Below are positions 2,827 to 18,022 of a stretch of DNA of 20,129 nucleotides, in pieces. Source of the DNA: a virus; IMG/VR virus record IMGVR_UViG_3300043409_002441, positions 1-20,129 of that record; one strand, given 5' to 3'. The stretch's first letter is position 1; every line of letters begins with the position of its first letter. The position numbers and the translations under genes are program-made. The notes beneath the pieces were generated by a model. That model did no database searches. It saw nothing but the letters and a program-made list of their open reading frames with translations, and was not told the origin of the DNA.

Positions 2827-2829
2827 TGT

Positions 2830-2838
2830 ATATTTATA
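2830..2838 (+). promoter_or_regulatory. Candidate phage promoter element ATATTTATA
   Basis: ATATTTATA followed by TATAAATT in the 29-base gap before the gene at 2856. It is one of six exact + strand copies found in intergenic gaps of this window. If it acts as a -10-like element, the transcript would start about 10 bases before the ATG. The motif resembles T4 late promoters (TATAAATA) in composition only. Confidence 0.35.
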
Positions 2839-8047: not shown

Positions 8048-8782
8048 TTACGCTTGAAATATTTTACATTCAATTACTTTTGATGGGTCCGTTTTATTTA
8101 CTATAGGTATTCTTAATGCATCTAAGGCATTAATTAAAGTATCGATTGCACTAGAAAACATATTAGTATCTTTAACATTAGTTACCGCCATCATATCTGC
8201 TTTTGAGACATTATTAAAAACGGATTTAGGATTATAAAATTTAGCTAAATGTGCTATTATAGTATTTTTTAACTCATCTTTTGTTAACATGTTAGCTTGC
8301 TTAGCGCCGACCGGCGCAATCTGACCAGTTGAAAATAATCCAACAGAATAGGGTCTAGCATCTGTATTAAGTAGCGTTAACCACTCTTTTTTTGGCTGTA
8401 CCGTGCCTACTACTGAATAATTTCCGGAAATAGTGCCTGGCGCATTAGTTATTTTGTTTGTTTTAGCTATAACATATGCTCCACTCAGATTCCCCGTTCT
8501 AATTTCTGCAGGTTGAATTCCACCTTTGATGTTAGCGTCTTGGCCGGGATTGGCTGGTACATACCTTATTGATATAGTCGGACAAAATTTTGCAGTTCCA
8601 CCTCCGCCCTCACCACCAACTGCTAATGGATTTTTTGCAGTTAATGTATTTAATGCTTTTACTGCAGCATCAACCAATTGTATTTGTTCTAATAATAAAG
8701 CTTCTGACAATACCGCTCTATCTTTTTCTTTTAAATTTTTTACTCCGAATCGAAGTAAATTTTCTGCTAAAATGTTTTTCAT
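8048..8782 (-). CDS. Unknown phage protein, 244 aa, the only minus-strand gene
   Basis: The start ATG is at 8782-8780, ten bases after an AAAAGGA site on the minus strand. Residues 1-52 are strongly helical (KNILAENLLRFGVKNLKEKD, then SEALLLEQIQLVDAAVKAL), followed by a Gly-rich hinge (AVGGEGGGG, about 54-62). The rest, ~64-244, is mixed alpha/beta with GAYVIAKTN and ARPYSVGLFS strands and a helical C-terminal third. There is no signal peptide or membrane segment. The MKNILAENLLRFGVKNL start feels familiar from virion-associated proteins of Bacteroidota phages, but I cannot name a family. I-L-A-E at 4-7 would fit a prohead-protease-type cut (inference). Being opposite to the late genes, it is likely a separately regulated accessory gene. 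Confidence 0.8.
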   Translation of the reverse strand: MKNILAENLLRFGVKNLKEKDRAVLSEALLLEQIQLVDAAVKALNTLTAKNPLAVGGEGGGGTAKFCPTISIRYVPANPGQDANIKGGIQPAEIRTGNLSGAYVIAKTNKITNAPGTISGNYSVVGTVQPKKEWLTLLNTDARPYSVGLFSTGQIAPVGAKQANMLTKDELKNTIIAHLAKFYNPKSVFNNVSKADMMAVTNVKDTNMFSSAIDTLINALDALRIPIVNKTDPSKVIECKIFQA

Positions 8783-8816: not shown

Positions 8817-8825
8817 TATAAATAT
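8817..8825 (-). promoter_or_regulatory. Candidate promoter element ATATTTATA (minus strand)
   Basis: Reading leftward, ATATTTATA lies 34 bases before the ATG of the minus-strand gene, followed by AAAAG and then the AAAAGGA ribosome binding site. The same bases read rightward give TATAAATA, so the site is ambiguous in direction. It is the minus-strand counterpart of the motif seen before several plus-strand genes. Confidence 0.3.
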
Positions 8826-8851
8826 ATACATCTAAAAAAAAACTAATTTAT

Positions 8852-8860
8852 ATATTTATA
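8852..8860 (+). promoter_or_regulatory. Candidate promoter element ATATTTATA before the pseudoknot-like leader
   Basis: ATATTTATA on the plus strand, seven bases before the first base of the interleaved inverted repeats (8868). If it works as a -10-like element, transcription would begin almost exactly at the 5' edge of that structure and read into the HNH gene. On the minus strand the overlapping bases read TATAAATA. Confidence 0.3.
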
Positions 8861-8867
8861 TTCGTAG

Positions 8868-8943
8868 GGTGGAAGCTACTAGTAGAAAATATTAATAAAA
8901 CCGTATGCTTAGTAGAGTCTTCCACCTCGAAAAGCATACGGTT
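8868..8943 (+). promoter_or_regulatory. Interleaved inverted repeats: putative RNA pseudoknot or switch upstream of the HNH gene
   Basis: Two perfect inverted repeats interlock. GGTGGAAG (8868-8875) pairs with CTTCCACC (8919-8926). AACCGTATGCTT (8899-8910) pairs with AAGCATACGGTT (8932-8943). The first stem can extend with CTACT (8876-8880) to AGTAG (8911-8915) past a three-base bulge, which places it directly against the second stem (8910/8911) for coaxial stacking. The order 1-2-1'-2' is that of an H-type pseudoknot, or of two mutually exclusive hairpins. It ends 10 bases before the HNH ATG, which lacks a Shine-Dalgarno site, so a role in controlling translation or transcription of that gene is likely. 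No known riboswitch consensus was recognised. Confidence 0.6.
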
Positions 8944-8953
8944 ACTTACTATT

Positions 8954-9601
8954 ATGGATTATAAAAAAATACATGATTTGATTATTGAACGAGCACGAAC
9001 AAGAGTATTAACTGGTTACAAAGAACGACATCATATCGTTCCAAAATGTATGGGTGGGACAAATGATTCAACAAATTTGGTTGAATTAACAGCTCGAGAA
9101 CATTTCATAATTCACAAACTACTTTATGAAATACATCCAGAACATCATGGCTTATTTAAAGGATATTATGCCATGGCCATGTTAAATTCACCGGATAGAA
9201 ATATTTCGTTAACTGCTCGTGAATATGAATATTTGCGGATTGAATTTGCAAAACGAAATACCGGAGTACTAAATCATTATTATGGTAAAAAACATAGTGA
9301 AGAAGTACGTGCTAAAATGAAAAAAAATAGTACACGTAAAGGTACACCTCCATGGAATAAAGGTTTAACTAAAGATGATGTACGAGTTGCAAAATATGCA
9401 AATGTCGTTAGATGGAATACTGGATTAACTAAGGATGATATACGAATACAAGAACAAATTAAAAAATCAATTGAAACTCGTACAGGTAAGTCTCGAGGAA
9501 ATTATAATGTACAATATGTAACATGTCCTTATTGTAACGTAACAAACACAACAACAGTAATTAAACGAGCTCATTTAGAAAAATGTAAATATAAAATTTG
9601 A
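8954..9601 (+). CDS. HNH homing-endonuclease-like protein with NUMOD3-like repeats and a zinc finger, 215 aa
   Basis: The HNH nuclease core lies at residues ~24-57: ERHHIVPKCMGG (likely catalytic His26/27), then the Asn-Leu pair NLVELTAREH at 41-50 and H54. Downstream are short DNA-binding repeats of NUMOD3 type: YYGKKHSEEVRAKMK (109-123), then two copies of a WN-GLTKDD-R motif (WNKGLTKDDVR at 134-144, WNTGLTKDDIR at 154-164). The C-terminus carries a C2HC-like finger with C191, C194, H207 and C211. Free-standing genes of this kind are mobile endonucleases in T4-like phages, cutting a homologous genome that lacks the insertion. There is no flanking self-splicing intron core that I can see. 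The gene lies between a structured leader and UvdE, which is consistent with insertion into an intergenic region. Confidence 0.88.
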   Translation: MDYKKIHDLIIERARTRVLTGYKERHHIVPKCMGGTNDSTNLVELTAREHFIIHKLLYEIHPEHHGLFKGYYAMAMLNSPDRNISLTAREYEYLRIEFAKRNTGVLNHYYGKKHSEEVRAKMKKNSTRKGTPPWNKGLTKDDVRVAKYANVVRWNTGLTKDDIRIQEQIKKSIETRTGKSRGNYNVQYVTCPYCNVTNTTTVIKRAHLEKCKYKI

Positions 9602-9653: not shown

Positions 9654-10682
9654 ATGATACGTTATGGCTATGCATGCAATTGTATGCACCTATCTACATC
9701 TGGTATCCGTACCGGTCGTACAATGATTGAACGCAAATTTAAAATTGGCGGTATGCAATTAGCTTCTGACATTGCACTTGCAAACGCAAAAGATTTTTTA
9801 ACTATACTTAAATGGAACGAGCAGAATGGCATTCGTCTATTCCGTTTAGGCTCTGAATTGTTTCCGCGATGGAATCATTATGAGTTGCATGACCTTCCAG
9901 GTATTGCCGAAATTACTCAGTATCTTCGTGCAGCCGGTGATTATACCAAGCAACATGGTCATCGCATTACAACGCATCCTGGTATGTTTCATATCCTAGG
10001 TAGTCCGGATGCTGTAATTGTTGATAACTCTATTGTTAGTTTAGAACGCCACTCCCAGTTGTTTGATCTTATGGGTTTTACGCCTAGCTTTGAAAATAAG
10101 ATTAATATACATGTTGGTGCCACTTACAATGATAAGCCTGGTACTATTGCCCGATGGTTAGCCAACTATTATCGTTTATCAGAATCTTGTCGTGCGCGTT
10201 TAGTCATAGAAAATGATGATAAGGCTTCCATGTATTCCGTACGAGAATTATATGAGTATTTGCATGTTCCAACCGCTATTCCAATTACATTTGATTATTG
10301 GCATCATACTTTCAATACTGGTGACTTAACCGAGCGTGAAGCCTTCTTTTTAGCTCGCGAGACGTGGGATCGGCATAACATAACCCAATGTACCCACTAT
10401 TCAGAGTCACGTCGTAGAGAGTCTCAAATACTAATAGAACGTATGTTTGCCCATCATAATATTGCAATAGAAGATTTAGCTAAATGGCCTACCTTTCAAA
10501 AACAATACAAAGAGTTTACCAAGATCAAAGAACAAGCCCATGCAGATTATATTACGCAGTTACCTAATACATATGGTGTTGATACCTTAGATGTTATGGT
10601 AGAAGCAAAGGCTAAGGAGCAATCGTTATTAAAATTAGGTGTTACGTGTTGTCAAGAAAATACCGCATTAATTGTGGATTAA
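9654..10682 (+). CDS. uvdE: UV-damage endonuclease, UvdE/UVDE family, 342 aa
   Basis: TIM-barrel (xylose-isomerase-like) endonuclease that nicks 5' of UV photoproducts and other distortions, starting alternative excision repair. Family landmarks in order: MIRYGYACNCMHL at the N-terminus, RLGSELFPRW (64-73), THPG (107-110, metal His108), IHVGA with H153, VIENDD with E186, FDYWHHTF with D214/H217, THYSE with H248, HADYI (296-300, the family HSDYI) and DVMVEAKAKE (313-322, E317). All expected metal-site regions are present, so the enzyme should be active. About 40 residues lie between THYSE and HADYI, longer than I remember for the family. The gene is visibly richer in G+C than its neighbours, suggesting separate acquisition. 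Phage repair of UV damage in exposed waters is a plausible role. Confidence 0.93.
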   Translation: MIRYGYACNCMHLSTSGIRTGRTMIERKFKIGGMQLASDIALANAKDFLTILKWNEQNGIRLFRLGSELFPRWNHYELHDLPGIAEITQYLRAAGDYTKQHGHRITTHPGMFHILGSPDAVIVDNSIVSLERHSQLFDLMGFTPSFENKINIHVGATYNDKPGTIARWLANYYRLSESCRARLVIENDDKASMYSVRELYEYLHVPTAIPITFDYWHHTFNTGDLTEREAFFLARETWDRHNITQCTHYSESRRRESQILIERMFAHHNIAIEDLAKWPTFQKQYKEFTKIKEQAHADYITQLPNTYGVDTLDVMVEAKAKEQSLLKLGVTCCQENTALIVD

Positions 10683-12164: not shown

Positions 12165-12837
12165 TAATTACTTTACCAAGATAACTGATATAGCTATTAG
12201 TGCTTATAATAAATCAGATAGTATGGTAAAACGAGAAAAAATATATCGACGGTTTATCTATCCAGCATTTATGAAACTAGCTGAAAATCTAATTAATAAA
12301 ATGAAACCAGGTTATATTGATTCATCGTTTTACGATTTACAAACTGACCTAGTTACGTTTTTAACGGCTCGATTAGATAAATTTAATCCGAATGCTGGAA
12401 AGGCTTATTCTTATTATACAAGAACTTCATTTAATTATTTAATAGGTGAAAATCAAAAAGCATATGCAAAACTTAAACAGACTACACAAACTTTAGATAT
12501 TGATGAACAACGCAATATTATCACGGAAATTCACAATGACGAAATGCGGGAAACATTGCATTACTTTATGGATGCGTATATTGAATATTGTTATGATAAT
12601 CTAAATTATATTTTTAATAATGCAACCGATATCCATGTAGCAGATTCAATACTTCATATTTTTGAAACTCGAGAAAACATTGAAGATTTTAATAAAAAGG
12701 CATTGTATATTTTTATACGGGAACGTACCGGTTTAGCAACTACAAATATTACCCGGGTAATTAAAACTTTTAAGCAAATTTACGATACCAAATTTAAAGA
12801 ATACGAACAAACAGACTTCATAAAATTGCCGTTTTGA
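12136..12837 (+). CDS. 55: Late sigma factor, T4 gp55-like, 233 aa
   Basis: The ATG at 12136, preceded by ACGGA, is preferred over an adjacent TTG. A basic N-terminus (MAKRAKKKSNN) is followed by a region-2-like helical core. Residues ~48-110 run ENLINKMKPGYID..., then DLVTFLTARLDKFNPN (71-86) and YSYYTRTSFNYLIGENQK (91-108). That matches the order of T4 gp55 (AEGLS..., helical segment, HNFDETKY, HAYITQACFNAF) with Phe/Tyr-rich -10-recognition helix features. The C-terminal half is helical and ends in a hydrophobic, basic-poor tail (TDFIKLPF), as expected for a late sigma that contacts a sliding-clamp coactivator. It overlaps the upstream gene by 29 bases. Identification is by pattern, not alignment. 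Confidence 0.72.
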   Translation: MAKRAKKKSNNYFTKITDIAISAYNKSDSMVKREKIYRRFIYPAFMKLAENLINKMKPGYIDSSFYDLQTDLVTFLTARLDKFNPNAGKAYSYYTRTSFNYLIGENQKAYAKLKQTTQTLDIDEQRNIITEIHNDEMRETLHYFMDAYIEYCYDNLNYIFNNATDIHVADSILHIFETRENIEDFNKKALYIFIRERTGLATTNITRVIKTFKQIYDTKFKEYEQTDFIKLPF

Positions 12838-12845
12838 TATTTATA
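12837..12845 (+). promoter_or_regulatory. Candidate late promoter ATATTTATA before the baseplate cluster
   Basis: Begins at the last base of the sigma-gene stop codon, 17 bases before the ATG at 12863, and is directly followed by a TATAAATG (12848-12855) one base off T4-late TATAAATA. This is the natural place for a late promoter of the baseplate operon. Confidence 0.4.
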
Positions 12846-12862
12846 TTTATAAATGTCTCATT

Positions 12863-18006: not shown

Positions 18007-18013
18007 TTCGCCT

Positions 18014-18022
18014 ATATTTATA
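18014..18022 (+). promoter_or_regulatory. Candidate promoter element ATATTTATA
   Basis: In the 29-base gap after the gp6-like gene, 13 bases before the next ATG. The following bases CTAAAAG nearly recur after a second copy of the motif that lies inside the downstream gene (19009-19017). Confidence 0.3.

Follow-up and report, generated by a model that had tools for sequence, protein, structure and literature searches.

The HNH homing endonuclease gene of the window, by which is meant the whole 20,129-nucleotide stretch of viral DNA that was analysed, is preceded by a leader whose fold is well supported by sequence comparison as a kissing-loop pseudoknot, with interleaved helices that are maintained by compensatory changes. 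Two hairpins, P1 and P2, together make up the entire 5' leader of this gene, and the loop of the one pairs with the loop of the other. As the same fold lies before many unrelated phage enzyme and replication genes, it is probably an undescribed RNA control switch. The RNA class is absent from Rfam 15, and its fold is backed by strong covariation. A kissing helix is rarely provable by sequence alone, yet one is supported here.

Architecture and covariation of the leader

The element was noticed as two inverted repeats interleaved in the order 1-2-1'-2', at 8868-8875/8919-8926 and 8899-8910/8932-8943, that end 10 nt before the ATG at 8954. Both the arrangement, with 12 of 12 pairs in the second repeat, and the distance are confirmed in the sequence. 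The resulting features are listed in Table 1.

Table 1. Positions of the promoter, leader and gene features in the window
Feature	Position	Strand	Remarks
Promoter-like TATATTTA	8851..8858	+	Bacteroidota -7 box TAnnTTTG with final A (consensus of PMC6847099)
5' limit of promoter-leader-HNH cassette shared with L007	homology from 8852		
P1, 5' strand GTAG	8864..8867	+	4 of 4 pairs changed on both sides, 100% paired; predicted independently by RNAalifold
P1 loop	8868..8875	+	5' kissing strand GTGGAAG at 8869-8875
P1, 3' strand CTAC	8876..8879	+	Pairs with GTAG 8864-8867
A/U-rich linker	8880..8898	+	
P2, 5' strand AACCGTATGCTT	8899..8910	+	Covariation
AGTA, 5' side of conserved internal loop	8911..8914	+	Alignment conservation
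Upper P2 stem, 5' strand GAG	8915..8917	+	AAG, GGC, GGG or AGG in relatives
P2 apical loop	8918..8925	+	3' kissing strand CTTCCAC at 8919-8925
Upper P2 stem, 3' strand CTC	8926..8928	+	Covariation
GAA, 3' side of internal loop	8929..8931	+	Alignment conservation
P2, 3' strand AAGCATACGGTT	8932..8943	+	Covariation
Spacer ACTTACTATT before ATG	8944..8953	+	Occupies the U-tract position of 79/84 copies
HNH homing endonuclease gene (phrog_655, NUMOD3)	8954..9601	+	

An alignment of 30 sequences, pre-filtered for an exact kissing match, gives a model in which P1 consists of 4 bp and an 8-nt loop and is joined by an A/U-rich linker to a P2 of about 10-12 bp. At the top of P2 an AGUA/GAA internal loop, the most conserved unpaired part of the alignment, leads into a GAG/CUC stem of 3 bp that is capped by an 8-nt loop. 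The two hairpin loops are joined to each other by 7 bp. The internal loop resembles a bulged-G (loop E) motif and is tentatively so named. All four helices covary, with 95.9% of cells paired against 31-44% in slid controls, and both-side changes are seen in 19 of 25 pairs. Unprompted, RNAalifold recovers P1, P2 and the upper stem, and in the relatives the upper stem occurs as the compensated variants GGC/GCC, GGG/CCC, AGG/CCT and AAG/CTT. The kissing helix alone is 100% paired in this alignment, with 39 double-change cells as against 9.5 in shuffles. Because the alignment was filtered for the kissing match, the unbiased tests are the scans in which loop bases were left free. With four loop bases free the kissing partner is present in 47 of 47 matches (0.2% in shuffles). 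With all eight free, a fully pairing 7-nt partner lies upstream in 81 of 86 distinct matches (0.6% in shuffles); four of the five partnerless matches look like chance pattern matches and one is truncated. The window leader is more stable than dinucleotide shuffles (folding z -2.57), and P2 would form whether or not the loops kiss.

The compensatory changes that the earlier note had set as its own test are thus found in all four helices, and its proposal of an RNA pseudoknot in a homing endonuclease leader is borne out, in the form of a loop-loop kissing pseudoknot. Its 8-bp first repeat holds for a conserved part of 7 bp (8869-8875/8919-8925), while C8926 pairs in the conserved GAG/CUC stem. 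An extension of that repeat past a bulge (CTACTA/TAGTAG) is rejected, with 63.3% of cells paired compared to 64.7% in shuffles. Two mutually exclusive hairpins, offered as an equally good model, are unsupported since all four helices are compatible with a single structure and every aligned relative retains all of them; coaxial stacking at 8910/8911 is likewise unsupported, because the conserved internal loop sits at that place. The hairpin P1, the GAG/CUC stem and the U-tract found in most relatives were absent from the note. It recognized no known riboswitch class, in agreement with the Rfam 15 covariance models at the gathering score, for which the window copy attains at best 27 of 52.7 bits, far below the cut-off, and eight of its relatives give no convincing match. 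Self-cleaving ribozymes (HDV-like and pistol), suggested by the interlocked topology, were rejected as they give no Rfam match and differ in their P1/P2 layout.

Promoter, U-tract and candidate mode of control

The promoter-like TATATTTA pointed out upstream of the structure is supported. Its position is an ordinary one for a promoter, and other window genes are preceded by similar motifs. Of the 45 copies with a TAnnTTTR box near P1, 42 have 4 or 5 nt between the end of the box and P1. Many transcripts of F. johnsoniae have their 5' ends 4 or 5 nt beyond the -7 box (PMC6847099), and from this equal spacing the leader probably begins at P1. The window leader has no Shine-Dalgarno site before the HNH ATG, as had been observed, which is normal if the host belongs to the Bacteroidota (PMC6847099). 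The -7 box and the relatives among Flavobacterium and Cellulophaga phages point to such a host. The window's baseplate protein, however, finds its best match (52%) in a Microcystis phage record.

A TATATTTATA-like motif is present in gene orientation about 20-30 nt before several start codons of the window (2829-2838, 12836-12851 and 18013-18022, and 8817-8826 on the minus strand) and probably represents a promoter motif of this phage itself. The minus-strand promoter at 8817-8826 and the plus-strand one at 8851-8858 are divergent. A T4-type late promoter TATAAATA at 8817-8824 on the plus strand was considered and rejected: since TATATTTATA precedes other window genes in gene orientation, 8817-8824 more likely serves the minus-strand gene. 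This gene (8048-8782, minus strand) starts MKNILAENLLRFG, and a pattern search of IMG/VR found no relatives of it. Three tandem genes with starts resembling MKNILAENLLRFG are located beside the same HNH cassette in L004 (428-2335, minus strand).

Directly after P2 at least six T in eight positions are found in 79 of 84 copies (94%) compared to 10% of 625 other ORFs, and at least seven in 88% of copies compared to 2% of those ORFs. The five copies that have no U-tract are exactly the window clade. The AUG is positioned 18-28 nt past the core in 76 of 83 copies, and 48-60 nt away in several of about ten copies before unclassified genes. A terminator scan that admits loops of 3-8 nt only found no terminator.

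The reading that we favour, as somewhat likelier to be right than wrong, is of a portable leader that acts in cis to restrain expression, by attenuation in most copies and at the level of translation in the window clade. The transcript would begin at hairpin P1, the loop of which would pair through 7 bp with the P2 apical loop, and only a few bases would separate the end of P2 from the start codon. P2 and the U-tract would in most copies form an intrinsic-terminator-like attenuator that keeps the downstream homing endonuclease or replication gene low or conditional, a restraint in which the kissing contact may have a role. With no U-tract the window copy could not work by attenuation; its loss in the window clade means that control there would be translational, the fold acting via the 12-bp stem that lies 10 nt upstream of the AUG. 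Leader, promoter and endonuclease gene would move between phages as a single cassette.

A possible but rather unlikely alternative is that all copies are purely translational operators or enhancers, the leader gating 30S access to an AUG without a Shine-Dalgarno site and the U-tract being a ribosome (bS1) landing site instead of the tail of a terminator. The near-constant AUG distance, the retention of the fold, with covariation, in a window clade devoid of the U-tract, and the tuning of F. johnsoniae initiation by mRNA structure (PMC6847099) all agree with this, but the U-tract is anchored directly after P2, where a run of at least seven T in eight is about 40 times commoner than before other ORFs. 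It is quite improbable that the leader is a riboswitch or protein-binding aptamer read via the AGUA/GAA internal loop. Although this loop is the most conserved unpaired part, few unpaired bases are conserved, no metabolite is common to the downstream genes and there is no Rfam riboswitch match. The put RNA of phage HK022 binds RNA polymerase and suppresses downstream termination, and a similar antiterminator could carry polymerase past terminators including the leader's own U-tract. The predicted 5' end, the two hairpins, the restriction to phages and the fact that no shared phage protein would be needed are consistent with such a leader, but it has no homology to put and this explanation is very improbable. 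Finally, an element acting as DNA, whether a cruciform, a recombination site or the endonuclease's own target, could explain why it moves together with an endonuclease gene. It is scarcely credible, however, as the element is also located before replication genes, and the G-U pairs common in P2, the fixed orientation and the fixed distance to the AUG argue for RNA rather than DNA.

Copies, downstream genes and mobility

A protein search of IMG/VR gave 15 relatives of the window HNH protein. The same element precedes the ATG in L002, L003, L004, L007 and L014, with repeats that are changed but complementary, and is missing from the remaining HNH relatives of the 15. In L009, L010, L011 and L016 the HNH homologues have a TATTTATATATAG promoter-like motif but no kissing element; they represent natural leader-free controls. 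Copies were collected by pattern scans of IMG/VR and covariance searches of whole records, and the collected loci contain 85 distinct copies together with several more diverged ones. The core pattern has 0 exact matches in 84,980 prokaryote genomes, an exact search that variants would escape, and a protein search of the same genome contigs found no relatives. When the element was compared by BLAST with cultured phages, only promoter or chance matches came up. A divergent candidate copy (E about 0.07) is present in the Cellulophaga phages phi10:1 (KC821618, 10258-10341) and phi19:1, and inspection by eye allows P1, the kissing pair, P2 and the upper stem to be traced in it; these two cultured phages offer a laboratory system for the candidate. 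The likely hosts are Bacteroidota, in which post-transcriptional control is little known.

The earlier description of an HNH-gene leader is true of the window copy, but the element is not restricted to HNH genes. Most of the genes downstream encode homing endonucleases, which belong to several unrelated families; DnaD-like replication genes come next in number. Among 83 downstream proteins Pfam identifies 21 NUMOD4 + HNH_3, 10 NUMOD3, 8 GIY-YIG and 6 DUF6291 proteins, PHROGs identifies 13 replisome organizers, and manual reading gives about 55 endonucleases, 17 replication proteins and 11 others. This suggests that a single portable control device serves both unrelated homing endonucleases and phage replication genes. 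A 102-kb phage (G031, the record of L159) contains four paralogous leaders, at contig positions 40022, 52497, 62229 and 82798, each before a different homing endonuclease; their P2 stems are nearly unchanged and their four kissing pairs are different.

There is one clear case of a moved cassette. The similarity of L007 to the window is confined to 8852-9138, a tract that starts at the promoter and ends inside the HNH gene. Their flanking genes differ, so that promoter, leader and gene travel as one. In the window the HNH gene is directly followed by a phage-encoded UvdE-type UV endonuclease (9654-10682). In L037, L124, L228, L244, L284 and phi10:1 (L227) a further conserved segment, which may form a hairpin (GGTTATCTTAAAACC or CGGTAATCTTAAAACCG), is located between the element and a small gene, most of these starting MERxKxIF. 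The AUG of this type of small gene is 53-55 nt away in the IMG/VR copies.

Variability of the kissing strands and comparison with known systems

Between orthologous genes that are 94-97% identical, the per-site change is 0.24 in the kissing strands and 0.25 in the linker; P2 has about 0.045 and the gene 0.043. These figures come from ortholog pairs that are not independent of one another. L124 and L228 are 97.6% identical over 2.9 kb, and their fully compensated kissing pairs differ at three positions per strand; their linkers differ too. In the five multi-copy phages in which paralogues were compared all kissing pairs differ. The presence of different types within one phage was rejected as proof of selection, as chance explains it given the allele pool. 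The simplest cause of the variability is exchange of the inner tract between phages, and selection for new kissing types is possible. This fast compensated exchange makes RNA self-recognition directly testable. It is distinctly unlikely that the leaders constitute a new phage RNA class with an internal kissing code that diversifies by inner-tract exchange, each leader recognizing itself and not the leaders of other cassettes or co-infecting phages. If true, such a code would be an incompatibility-like system for homing endonucleases and phage replication genes.

A diversifying code acting in trans is improbable. Here terminated or co-infecting leaders would pair their loops, a shared type would interfere and new types would be favoured, as in plasmid antisense incompatibility. 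The rapid change of the kissing strands relative to P2 and the gene, the compensated difference between L124 and L228, and the differing paralogues would all suit it. However, the linker changes equally fast, so plain inner-tract recombination fits, differing types inside one phage are expected by chance, and no trans RNA or antisense promoter was found. A conserved antisense promoter of the -7-box type, the type that was searched for, is not observed (9 of 83 copies).

The preferred cis-acting leader is functionally reminiscent of several known systems but shares no family with them (PMC3014915, PMC10724649). The leader hairpins of I-TevI, mobE and segB in T-even phages and Aeh1 similarly restrain phage homing endonucleases through a structured leader (PMC3014915). 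These are single hairpins that hide the ribosome binding site of one gene each. The element, in contrast, consists of two hairpins that kiss, has a U-tract but no Shine-Dalgarno site, and keeps one fold across unrelated endonuclease families and replication genes. In the window leader the structure lies directly before the endonuclease start codon, as in the I-TevI/mobE type, but sequesters no Shine-Dalgarno site. The T4 gene 32 operator is also a pseudoknot in a phage leader upstream of the start codon, of the H-type, located about 67 nt upstream and bound by the gene's own product (PMC3014915); the element, in contrast, is a loop-loop kissing structure adjoining the AUG of many genes. The I-complex plasmids (RNAI/SLI, pseudoknot, repZ) likewise have a replication gene whose leader engages in loop kissing, and their variable loops determine compatibility (PMC10724649). 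The kissing partner there is an antisense RNA in trans, whereas in the element it is part of the same RNA and no antisense promoter is seen. A stem followed by a U-tract, as in 79 of 84 copies, is shared with intrinsic terminators and attenuators, though not by the window copy; unlike a plain terminator, the stem contains an internal loop and its apical loop kisses an upstream hairpin. The Guanidine-II riboswitch consists of two kissing hairpins with short conserved loops and a ligand. The element also has two kissing hairpins, but with variable 8-nt loops and 7 kissing pairs.
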